DNA of 64,000 nucleotides from the NCBI RefSeq assembly GCF_008727875.1, contig NZ_VTWS01000005.1, positions 310,001 through 374,000 on the forward strand. Reading direction: 5' to 3'. The notes below the pieces were generated by a model. That model saw nothing but the letters and a program-made list of their open reading frames with translations, was not told the DNA's origin and ran no database searches. Position numbers and translations under genes: made by a program. Within the stretch, counting starts at the first letter, position 1; each line of letters opens with the position of its first letter. Below are positions 18,103 through 54,899 of the stretch, piece by piece. Source of the DNA: Larkinella humicola (lineage in GTDB: Bacteria; Bacteroidota; Bacteroidia; Cytophagales; Spirosomataceae).

Positions 18103-18354
18103 TCCGCCAGCGTCATACGGATGAGACCCTGGAATCGCATGGACGGAACTGGCTTTTAGGAAATCCCCGTTCTTTGGCATTCGATCGGCCATCCCTCCGA
18201 GATGATTCAGCTTGTAGCGGTGGATTTTAACCCAACCAATCATGTGAAAACCGAATCCAAAAAATCCCATAGGGATGATTCATTTTGTAACGGGCGAACA
18301 ATTAATCAATCACTGATTTTTATTAGGACTTACGTCTGATAATTCAATCACACG

Positions 18355-18458
18355 TTCGCTTTCTGCCCCTAAAGGACGGTCGGCCGCTGCCGGACTTTTA
18401 ACATCCAGATTAAGCCGCGTCCAAGTCCCCTTTAGGGGATTTAGGGGCAGAAAGCGAA
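18355..18458. repeat. Inverted-repeat element, family 1 copy A
   Basis: Perfect 19-bp arms (TTCGCTTTCTGCCCCTAAA at 18355-18373 and its complement at 18440-18458) enclose a core with GGACGGTCGGCCGCTGCCGG and a later CGCGTCCAAGTCC. The same core occurs in reverse orientation at 39434-39547 (copy B). The left arm here lacks one of the two CCCCTAAA units present in copy B. The outer bases TTCGCTTTCTG are specific to this copy. Confidence 0.88.
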
Positions 18459-18644
18459 AGTCCTATTTATAATGAAGTTGTTTAAGATTGCGTAGGAACA
18501 GAATACTAAATGTAAAATTAATACTGTGCGAAGGATTGATTTTGCCGAATAGCCTTTGGGGTTTAAGCAAAGTATGCTTTTAAAATGACCTTTTTATCTA
18601 TTGGTTTTTGACCCCCATTTCGCCACCATAAAGCAACCCCGGGC

Positions 18645-18760
18645 AGACTGGGCCGCGTAGCGGACGAATGTTTGTAGCAAGACGCAGGTATGCTCGCAGT
18701 CCAGCGTGCTGTCAGGCACACGCCTTGCTACAAGCATCTGTCCGCTACGCGGCCCAGTCT
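18645..18760. repeat. Inverted-repeat element, 21-bp arms
   Basis: Arms of 21 bp (AGACTGGGCCGCGTAGCGGA plus C at 18645-18665, complement at 18740-18760) are perfect. Inside them, after a partly unpaired stretch, a second perfect 10-bp stem follows (TTGTAGCAAG at 18672-18681 with CTTGCTACAA at 18724-18733). The central loop is about 42 bases. There is no reading frame or U-run. Confidence 0.88.
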
Positions 18761-29984: not shown

Positions 29985-30035
29985 CGAAATTTCAATTTAA
30001 TTAACTTTACTTGACTGGCCCCAACCCCGTTTGGA

Positions 30036-30160
30036 GTTGACTGTTGATAACCCCGGATGCAATCCGGGGCCACCGGATCAGTCTGTCTCCTGATGCAGAT
30101 AGTATCTTGCTCATCTCCCACATCTGCCCCGGATTGCATCCGGGGTTATCAACAGTCAAC
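30036..30160. repeat. Inverted-repeat element, family 2 copy 1 (35-bp arms)
   Basis: Perfect 35-bp arms (30036-30070 and 30126-30160) surround a 55-base centre. The inner part GATAACCCCGGATGCAATCC is shared with the element at 45051-45140; the outer part GTTGACTGTT is specific to this copy. It lies between the two sulfatase genes, 43 bp downstream of the second sulfatase's stop codon. Confidence 0.9.
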
Positions 30161-30202
30161 CCCGTTGGGTTGGAGCGTGAGAAGACTCGACACTACCCGG
30201 TT

Positions 30203-39131: not shown

Positions 39132-39419
39132 TTAAACCAGATAGTCGATTTCCAGGAACTCCGCGACGTTGTTCAGCCAGAATTGTTGCACAAAGCGGAC
39201 GTGATCGGGGTGGTGGTTGTACGCGTCGTACTGCTCCTGGCTGGCAAATTCCATCGACAGTCCAAAGTCATACGGGTTTTTCGGGCTAATTTGTTTCAGG
39301 CACTCGAACTGTTGCACCCCGGGAATCGCGACCAGCTTCCGGGCTTCGTTCAAAAAATTCTGTTCCTCCTGCGAACCAGCCGGATGTTTGAGTTTAAAGA
39401 CAACGGTATGACGGATCAT
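39132..39419 (-). CDS. Dabb-family (stress-responsive A/B barrel) protein
   Basis: A 95-residue protein when started at MIRHTVVFKLKHPAGSQEEQ, the family's usual beginning; the frame runs on upstream through the inverted repeat. The Dabb ferredoxin-like fold is seen in LNEARKLVAIPGVQQFECLK and YDFGLSMEFASQEQYDAYNH, ending HPDHVRFVQQFWLNNVAEFL. Family members act as dimers; some bind polyketides or modified sugars, and most have no known function. The gene follows the isomerase-like gene with only the hairpin in between. The start codon lies 15 bp downstream of the hairpin arm, so the hairpin may affect its translation. Confidence 0.9.
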   Translation of the reverse strand: MIRHTVVFKLKHPAGSQEEQNFLNEARKLVAIPGVQQFECLKQISPKNPYDFGLSMEFASQEQYDAYNHHPDHVRFVQQFWLNNVAEFLEIDYLV

Positions 39420-39433
39420 CGAACGACTGTTTG

Positions 39434-39547
39434 CATTGAAAATCGCCCCTAAATCCCCTAAAGTGGACTTGGACGCGGTTAATCCAGATTTAAAAAGTCC
39501 GGCAGCGGCCGACCGTCCTTTAGGGGATTTAGGGGCGATTTTCAATG
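39434..39547. repeat. Inverted-repeat element, family 1 copy B (30-bp arms)
   Basis: Perfect 30-bp arms (39434-39463 and 39518-39547) surround a 54-base centre. The inner arm GCCCCTAAATCCCCTAAAG and the core are shared with copy A at 18355-18458, in the opposite orientation. The outer arm bases CATTGAAAATC are unique to this copy yet pair perfectly. The element abuts the stop codon of the isomerase-like gene (39548-39550) and ends 15 bp before the Dabb start. Confidence 0.92.
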
Positions 39548-40417
39548 TCAACCCCAGCTTGCTTTCTGAATGTTGTCGATGCTGATTTTGATGCTTTCCA
39601 GCGGAGGGCGTTTACAGATGTCCTGCTCCACAAAATAATGCTTCATCCCAGCTTCCCCCGCTTTTTCAAAAATGGCCGCAAAGTCGATGGAACCGGTGCC
39701 TACTTCCGCGAATTCCTGCTCCGGTGTTTTTGCCATATCCTTCACGTGCCAGAGGGGAAAACGACCGGGGTATTTGGCGAAATAATCGGCGGGTTTCTGA
39801 CCGGTTTTCGAAATCCAGTACAAATCCATTTCCATCTGCACCGTCGTATTTTTCAGAATCAACTCATACGGCATCTGTCCGTCCACGCGCTCCGTAAACT
39901 CAAAATCGTGGTTGTGGTAGCCCAGCGTCAGCCCGGCTTTTTTCGCCGTTTCCTGACCCGCCGACAGCAGATCGACCAGTTGTTTGTAGTCCTCCGTTTT
40001 GCGCTCGTCGGCGGCCAGATACGCAATGATGATGTATTCCTGACCCACAGCGGCCGCATCGTCCACCACCTGCTGCCAGTTTTTAGTCAAGCCGTCCATC
40101 GGGCCCATTTGGGTTGAACGGGCCGTCAGAGTGTGTCCGCTAGGAGCCGACAAGCCATTGTCTTTCAGTATTTTAAGGTACTCAGTAGGGGTTTTTCCGA
40201 AGAATTTTCCACCGCCATACCCGAAGTTTTCCACTTCTTTATACCCCAGTTTGGCTACCTCCGCCAGGACGGTTTCGATCCCCTGTTTCTGAATGTCATC
40301 CCGGAGCGTATACAATTGCAAGCCTATGGTTTTGGCTTTTGCCGAACAGGCGTTCAGGCCAAGCATCGAGAGCGCACCAAGTCCTAAAGAGGTTCCAAGA
40401 AAGTTTCTGCGATTCAT
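39548..40417 (-). CDS. Sugar phosphate isomerase/epimerase-like TIM-barrel protein, exported lipoprotein
   Basis: A 289-residue protein. The N-terminus combines a twin-arginine-like start (MNRRNFLGTSLGLGALSMLG) with a lipobox (LNAC, Cys25), so it is probably exported and anchored. The body is an AP-endonuclease-2/xylose-isomerase-like barrel: KTIGLQLYTLRDDIQKQG, EVAKLGYKEVENFGYGGGKF, GYHNHDFEF with the metal-binding His, QMEMDLYWISKTG (Glu/Asp), and HVKDM plus VGTGSIDF near the end. Many such exported family members act on 3-keto-sugars or inositol derivatives together with DUF1080 proteins. The precise reaction is unknown. It heads a two-gene unit with the Dabb gene. Confidence 0.92.
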   Translation of the reverse strand: MNRRNFLGTSLGLGALSMLGLNACSAKAKTIGLQLYTLRDDIQKQGIETVLAEVAKLGYKEVENFGYGGGKFFGKTPTEYLKILKDNGLSAPSGHTLTARSTQMGPMDGLTKNWQQVVDDAAAVGQEYIIIAYLAADERKTEDYKQLVDLLSAGQETAKKAGLTLGYHNHDFEFTERVDGQMPYELILKNTTVQMEMDLYWISKTGQKPADYFAKYPGRFPLWHVKDMAKTPEQEFAEVGTGSIDFAAIFEKAGEAGMKHYFVEQDICKRPPLESIKISIDNIQKASWG

Positions 40418-44892: not shown

Positions 44893-45050
44893 AAGTAAAA
44901 GTTCAGGTTTCTGGGTTTCGACTCCTTATAAAGAGTCGAAAAAGGAAATGTATTGAAATCTACTACAAAAATTAGAAAATTTCCGGACTTTTCCGCGTTA
45001 AAACTGGATCATTGTTACCTTCCAGCCTATTTAAGCCCGAAGGGTGCTCT

Positions 45051-45140
45051 ATGGATAACCCCGGATGCAATCCGGGGCTGCGGGCTGCGACGGCTGATGG
45101 TCGATCACCTGAGCCCCGGATAGCATCCGGGGTTATCCAT
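45051..45140. repeat. Inverted-repeat element, family 2 copy 2 (29-bp arms)
   Basis: Arms at 45051-45079 and 45112-45140 pair over 29 bp with one mismatch. The inner sequence GATAACCCCGGATGCAATCC is the same as in the copy at 30036-30160, but here the flank is ATG instead of GTTGACTGTT, and its complement CAT is on the other side. The 32-base centre also differs from copy 1. It lies 20 bp downstream of the permease stop codon (minus strand). Confidence 0.88.
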
Positions 45141-45160
45141 ACTTATAATTTGTCCGGTTT

Positions 45161-54803: not shown

Positions 54804-54899
54804 TTTATTCCCACGGTTCAAACCGTGGGCTGGTTTTCATACCAACCACGTCATCAGAATAGCAATTCCACAGCCCACGGTTTGAACCGTGGGAATAAA
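54804..54899. repeat. Inverted-repeat element with doubly palindromic 29-bp arms
   Basis: Perfect 29-bp arms at 54804-54832 and 54871-54899, each of which contains its own palindrome (CCCACGGTT CAA ACCGTGGG). The 38-base centre has no other structure. The sequence can therefore form either one long stem or two short hairpins. It lies between the GT2 gene and the PAP2 gene; a partial relative (CAACGGTTCTAACCGTT) follows at 54924-54940. Confidence 0.9.

Follow-up and report, generated by a model that had tools for sequence, protein, structure and literature searches.

Arms and loops of a mobile hairpin family in Larkinella are probably rewritten by template switching

Hairpins of a mobile family in Larkinella (family 1) probably undergo rewriting by template switching: the core inserts, and its arms, its loop or the flanking DNA are then altered. 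We put the probability of this reading at roughly 0.6. Judged from its sequence, family 1 is a MITE-like Larkinella family whose inner part is a predicted hairpin. The core of the family is found inside the mobile unit, without the ends of the unit, or nested within other palindromes.

The window analysed is a stretch of 64,000 nucleotides from Larkinella humicola (contig NZ_VTWS01000005.1), whose genome (G000) measures 7.86 Mb. Two copies of family 1, A and B, lie in the window with the following features:

18319..18323, no strand: target duplication TTTAT to the left of copy A
18324..18465, plus strand: copy A, a complete MITE-like unit TAGGACTT...AAGTCCTA
18355..18458, plus strand: hairpin within copy A; its outer arms TTCGCTTTCTG/CAGAAAGCGAA are of the family type
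18466..18470, no strand: target duplication TTTAT to the right of copy A
39132..39422, minus strand: Dabb gene (stress-responsive A/B barrel), on the opposite flank of copy B
39434..39445, no strand: left outer arm of copy B, CATTGAAAATCG, non-family
39446..39463, no strand: left inner arm of copy B, CCCCTAAATCCCCTAAAG, family type
39464..39517, minus strand: loop/core of copy B, including the GACGGTCGGCCGCTGCCGGAC module at 39497-39517 (minus strand)
39518..39535, no strand: right inner arm of copy B, CTTTAGGGGATTTAGGGG
39536..39547, no strand: right outer arm of copy B, CGATTTTCAATG, directly adjoined by the neighbouring gene's stop codon (39548-39550)
39548..40417, minus strand: xylose isomerase-like TIM barrel gene (PF01261), whose end abuts the B hairpin

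The original prediction that A and B share their core and inner arms, and that their outer arms are unrelated between the copies yet self-paired in each, was borne out. Copy B (39434-39547; locus L006 in our copy list) is a perfect palindrome in which a 12-bp outer arm pair (CATTGAAAATCG/CGATTTTCAATG) and an 18-bp inner arm pair (CCCCTAAATCCCCTAAAG/CTTTAGGGGATTTAGGGG), each fully complementary, enclose a 54-base core. Its predicted RNA fold is -64.8 kcal/mol (z -10.1). The outer arms of copy A (TTCGCTTTCTG and CAGAAAGCGAA) also pair together, its inner arms are asymmetric (CCCCTAAAG versus CTTTAGGGGATTTAGGGG), and its predicted fold is -55.3 (z -7.3). The terminal inverted repeats TAGGACTT...AAGTCCTA of A, similar in other canonical copies, are absent from B. 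Ordinary transposon ends were ruled out for B, with neither a terminal repeat nor a direct duplication seen beside it (flanks inspected by eye). The gene adjoining B has its top protein match among named genomes in Larkinella punicea (96% identical) and is also present in the genus genome G004. A search for known structured RNAs gave no Rfam match at the gathering score within the window.

A DNA search of G000 returned 76 matching pieces, and the inner arm alone had 198 matches at three or fewer mismatches, compared with 35 for a reversed-pattern control. The copies analysed number at least 79 in G000, including copy A; they were drawn from search listings and are not every copy. Four of the 83 loci scanned (L026, L051, L059 and L186) had no arm pair and were dropped, and L001 was added by hand, for a total of 79. 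A family-like outer arm (ACTTTCGCTTTTG/CAAAAGCGAAAGT) is present on at least one side in 37 of the 79 copies and on both sides in 22, and the exact 11 outer-arm bases of A recur on at least one side in 9. The expectation that each copy carries its own outer arm therefore holds for B, which has a non-family arm, and fails for A, which has the family arm type and lies in a MITE-like unit. Many copies with identical outer arms, a pattern that would speak against palindromes grown into their own flanks, were found in part, as these counts for the arm of A indicate.

Bacterial MITEs are short non-coding units with terminal ends and target duplications that occur in many copies. Family 1 resembles them in its short non-coding units, TAGGACTT/AAGTCCTA ends, target duplications of 5-8 bp and high copy number. 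It differs from them in that many copies of its core lack the TAGGACTT/AAGTCCTA ends. The asymmetric end AGGACTTACGTCTGATAATTC occurs 26 times at three or fewer mismatches. Among 22 copies checked, 9 had a 5-8 bp target duplication together with an empty site, holding one copy of it, in a relative; the duplication is exact in L183, L002, L008, L017 and L190 and has one mismatch in L201, L003, L020 and L204. The duplication was longer, doubtful or absent in the remaining 13. The terminal ends, together with target duplications and single-copy empty sites, suggest that the canonical family 1 unit is MITE-like. G000 also contains units with little or no core (L275, L277, L279 and L280). Mixed GTT/TAAAT modules are present in 3 of 78 copies (L001 was left out), compared with 16.8 expected from shuffling, a control that ignores the common descent of the copies. 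No description of this repeat family was found among the titles and abstract openings searched.

REP, BIME and REPIN elements are intergenic palindromes present in many copies and linked to RAYT. Family 1 also consists of multi-copy intergenic palindromes, but its elements are longer. Membership in a RAYT/REP system was rejected: only one of seven Y1_Tnp (PF01797) loci has a core arm pair within 1.5 kb, and this pair lies some 1.3 kb from the Y1_Tnp gene. A further family of palindromes (GGTCGCGTAGCGACC...ATGTTTGTAG) is found at 18645-18760 of the window and at L061/L143 downstream of the isomerase gene. Copies of it lie about 0.1-0.4 kb from one of the seven Y1_Tnp genes (C11:1534510), and this proximity suggests that the GGTCGCGTAGCGACC...ATGTTTGTAG family may be RAYT-associated. 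The window also holds a second inverted-repeat family (CCCCGGATGCAATCCGGGG) with two copies (30033-30163 and 45050-45141) whose outer arms, as in family 1, differ between copies and are paired. A perfect 29-bp inverted repeat with CCCACGGTTCAAACCGTGGG inside is located at 54804-54899. Finally, a GGCAGGGCTGTTAAG...CTTAACAGCCCTGCC-type element in the family 1 core of L013 and of two G004 loci (L289, the ortholog of L019, and L329, the ortholog of L021) holds another palindrome.

We looked up 49 of the 79 copies in G004 and G007. In G004, the core was present in both genomes at 27 of these loci, the site was empty at 16 and a two-sided ortholog was lacking at 6. The loops had opposite orientations in 12 of 26 readable G000/G004 pairs and the same orientation in 14, with collinear flanks (the loop of L016 was unreadable). 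In a strict subset of 16 pairs, in which no other G000 loop matches the G004 loop as well as its own ortholog does, 5 loops are inverted (L185, L022, L168, L023 and L167) and 11 are not. The idea of near-saturated loop inversion (12/26) is weakened by this stricter count. None of the elements in the 79 copies is longer than about 112 bp, so collapse at the read length is an unlikely cause of the flips.

The outer arms provided 204 positions for comparison in 17 G000/G004 pairs. Four other pairs (L003, L022, L016 and L167) could be compared only with gaps and were excluded, and six pairs with fewer than five paired positions were left uncounted. Fourteen changes affected a single arm and four were coordinated between the arms. 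Two of the coordinated changes (L183 and L184) are clean, compared with 0.08 expected; the probability of two or more is about 0.003, a rough value that assumes independence. The change in L175 may be an alignment shift, and that in L177 is not clean, the compared G004 arm belonging to the first unit of a tandem array. At this G004 ortholog of L177 (L236 on G004:C4), several near-identical family 1 cores stand in tandem; G000 has a single core. L019 has one further double change, which left the arms unpaired, and L022 has an identical 1-base indel in both arms. Furthermore, a TAAAT/GTT inner module was swapped in both arms in 5 of 27 pairs (L171, L175, L163, L029 and L021) and in one arm only in none. 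Three of these copies (L171, L163 and L029) retained their own loop. L177 has a TAAAT/TAAT difference in one arm only. This one-arm difference and the excess of single-arm over clean coordinated changes (14 versus 2) suggest that correction is far from instant.

Two features of template switching are present in these comparisons: joint changes in both arms (2 clean substitutions, 1 two-arm indel and 5 module swaps, alongside 14 single-arm changes) and spacer inversion (12/26; 5/16 in the strict subset). A polymerase mechanism may thus underlie the rewriting of arms and loops, as we infer from the sequence comparisons. During replication, the nascent strand would pair with the opposite arm, or with the arm of the other strand, copy it and then return. 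Such switched copying would make the arms identical or turn the loop round. Synthesis that continued on the switched template past the arm would add an inverted copy of the flank, and the palindrome would grow outward.

Arm homogenisation and spacer inversion are described as results of template switching in parts of PMC8604942, the introduction of which credits the suggestion to Ripley (1982). The same source cites an earlier study by its own authors in which repeated switching was suggested to be common in proteobacteria, and its Table 2 lists ten yeast inversions with spacers of 2-5 bp. Quasipalindrome template switching (the Ripley model), as outlined in PMC8604942 and PMC8794818, homogenises the arms of short inverted repeats and inverts their spacers, and family 1 shares both features. 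It differs in that the process appears to act on a family of mobile hairpins, with loops of roughly 38 bp and with flank copied outward. Template switching is a known mechanism, and the homogenised arms, inverted loops and copied flanks all fit its action, which would here be on a mobile hairpin family.

We identified 42 copies among the 79 with no family-like outer arm, six of which pair at a score of at least 11: L005 (with one mismatch), L183, L165, L176, L006 (copy B) and L178. In 1000 shuffles of the right arms, the number of copies reaching even a score of 8 averaged 0.12, with a maximum of 2. This control indicates that the outer pairing exceeds chance. Many copies have no paired outer arms (among them L170, L181, L192 and L205), which suggests that extension is not automatic. 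Comparisons with the sequences of relatives point to three origins for the unusual arms: alteration of family-like arms on both sides, nesting in an older palindrome and outward copying of flank. L183 is of the first kind: a single swap, present in both arms, separates it from the G004 ortholog, and it sits in an exact 7-bp duplication. The arms of L178 look like family arms in which both sides have identical gaps (by inspection), and its duplication is longer and imperfect. L178 is therefore probably a copy whose family-like arms were altered on both sides.

L005 illustrates nesting. G007 has its outer palindrome but no core; there, GGCTGACGCATT...AATGCGTCAGCC flank a different 32-nt interior. 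G003 has an imperfect outer palindrome at this locus (GGTGGCTAGCGC...GCGTCAGCCACC) with another loop and no core, and G004 has neither the outer palindrome nor the core. The core-less outer arms in G007 and, imperfectly, in G003 indicate that the palindrome at L005 is older and that the core was nested within it. In this case, both outer arms already stand in relatives, a pattern that counts against growth at the locus. At L165 and L176, the gaps in G003, G005 or G008 (matched on both flanks) contain other sequence without the L165 or L176 arms, and the relative that would decide their origin was not found among the genus genomes compared. By eye, the gene ends at L165, L176 and L202 carry a different palindrome or repeat in some of G003, G005, G007 and G008. 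Differing palindromes at the same gene ends suggest that hairpins turn over there.

Outward copying of flank is best seen at L280. In the G004 ortholog, the core is full and the right flank reads CCTTAAG; in G000, the core is collapsed and the right flank reads TATAAAG, which complements the CTTTATA of the left side (+7 bp). The CTTTATAC sequence occupies the same position in other copies such as L002, suggesting that the left side of L280 was the template. Furthermore, the CCTTAAG of G004 is nearer to the family end AAAGTCCTA, so G000 probably holds the derived state. The case comprises three substitutions plus a loop deletion. At L167, G004 is longer by 11 bases, which repeat the left flank in inverted form and join at GGGGCAA; either G004 grew or, equally possibly, G000 lost the 11 bp by slippage between GGGGCAA repeats. 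Beside L025, G004 has a hairpin missing from G000 whose far arm is an inverted copy of the end of the adjacent unit, joined at AAAG. From these alignments, growth of a palindrome into its flank appears supported at L280 by the G004 ortholog and only possible at L167.

The original prediction had each palindrome growing into its own flank, either from a hairpin end that primes copying by template switching or through a REP-type process that duplicates the flank in inverted form. Arm-templated copying is backed by the two-sided arm changes and the loop inversions, and growth is seen at L280, in the hairpin beside L025 in G004 and possibly at L167. Unusual arms have three sources, of which growth is one; L005 is a case of nesting. 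The pattern predicted by growth, one arm equal to the ancestral flank and the other its copy, was seen at L280 and not at L005, and at L167 the 11 bp fit either polarity. The predicted growth process thus appears to act in family 1, as one of several sources.

The strongest rival to template switching, though one we hold tentatively, is that cores entered the centres of pre-existing palindromes and that the varied outer arms are those of varied hosts. L005 argues for it, as do the nearly core-less units in G000 (L275, L277, L279 and L280) and the GGCAGGGCTGTTAAG...CTTAACAGCCCTGCC-type element within the core of L013 and, in G004, of the L019 and L021 orthologs. However, L280 is no ancestral shell, since its G004 ortholog carries the full core, and none of the 9 genomes searched contains a CATTGAAAATCG palindrome whose gap is 3-33. 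Nesting also leaves the two-sided arm changes, the loop inversions and the L280 flank unexplained.

Two further explanations seem unlikely, and about equally so. Both arms and the loop could be swapped together by gene conversion from other family members. Eleven of the 27 G004 loops, including those of L184, L191 and L175, are nearer to another G000 copy than to their own ortholog, some through added modules, and the loops of L184 and L191 suggest that copying between family members may also occur. However, L171, L163 and L029 changed both arms and kept their own loop, and the inverted loops of L185, L022, L168, L023 and L167 best match their own orthologs. Alternatively, selection for a stable RNA hairpin, such as a terminator or mRNA end, could keep arms complementary through ordinary compensatory mutation. 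This would suit the fold of B (z -10.1), which starts directly after a stop codon, and the other palindromes seen by eye in the L165, L176 and L202 gaps of some relatives. Inverted loops are not a prediction of selection on pairing, however, and such selection sits poorly with two clean double changes where 0.08 were expected. A terminator scan, which is blind to loops over 8, found one short site, close to the shuffle mean of 0.9.

For copy B, none of the 8 other genus genomes searched has an informative site. We infer that the best interpretation of its locus-specific arms is rewriting around an inserted core: either the palindrome grew outward, or the core became nested in a palindrome that the same process kept perfect. 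A bolder extension of template switching, which we consider doubtful, is that inserted cores seed self-growing palindromes. Repeated switching would copy flank into the opposite arm and turn a short core into a long locus-specific hairpin. Copy B would be such a product, and the palindromes at gene ends of sister species would arise and turn over likewise.

Family 1 numbers at least 79 copies in one genome, and a sister species shares 27 of the 49 that were looked up. This makes it a natural experiment in template switching, with similar hairpins at many sites and three separate read-outs: the orientation of the loop, the identity of the arms and their length. The findings also caution that paired changes in bacterial stems need not imply selection on RNA structure. 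Furthermore, family 1 suggests a route by which mobile hairpins may become locus-specific hairpins.
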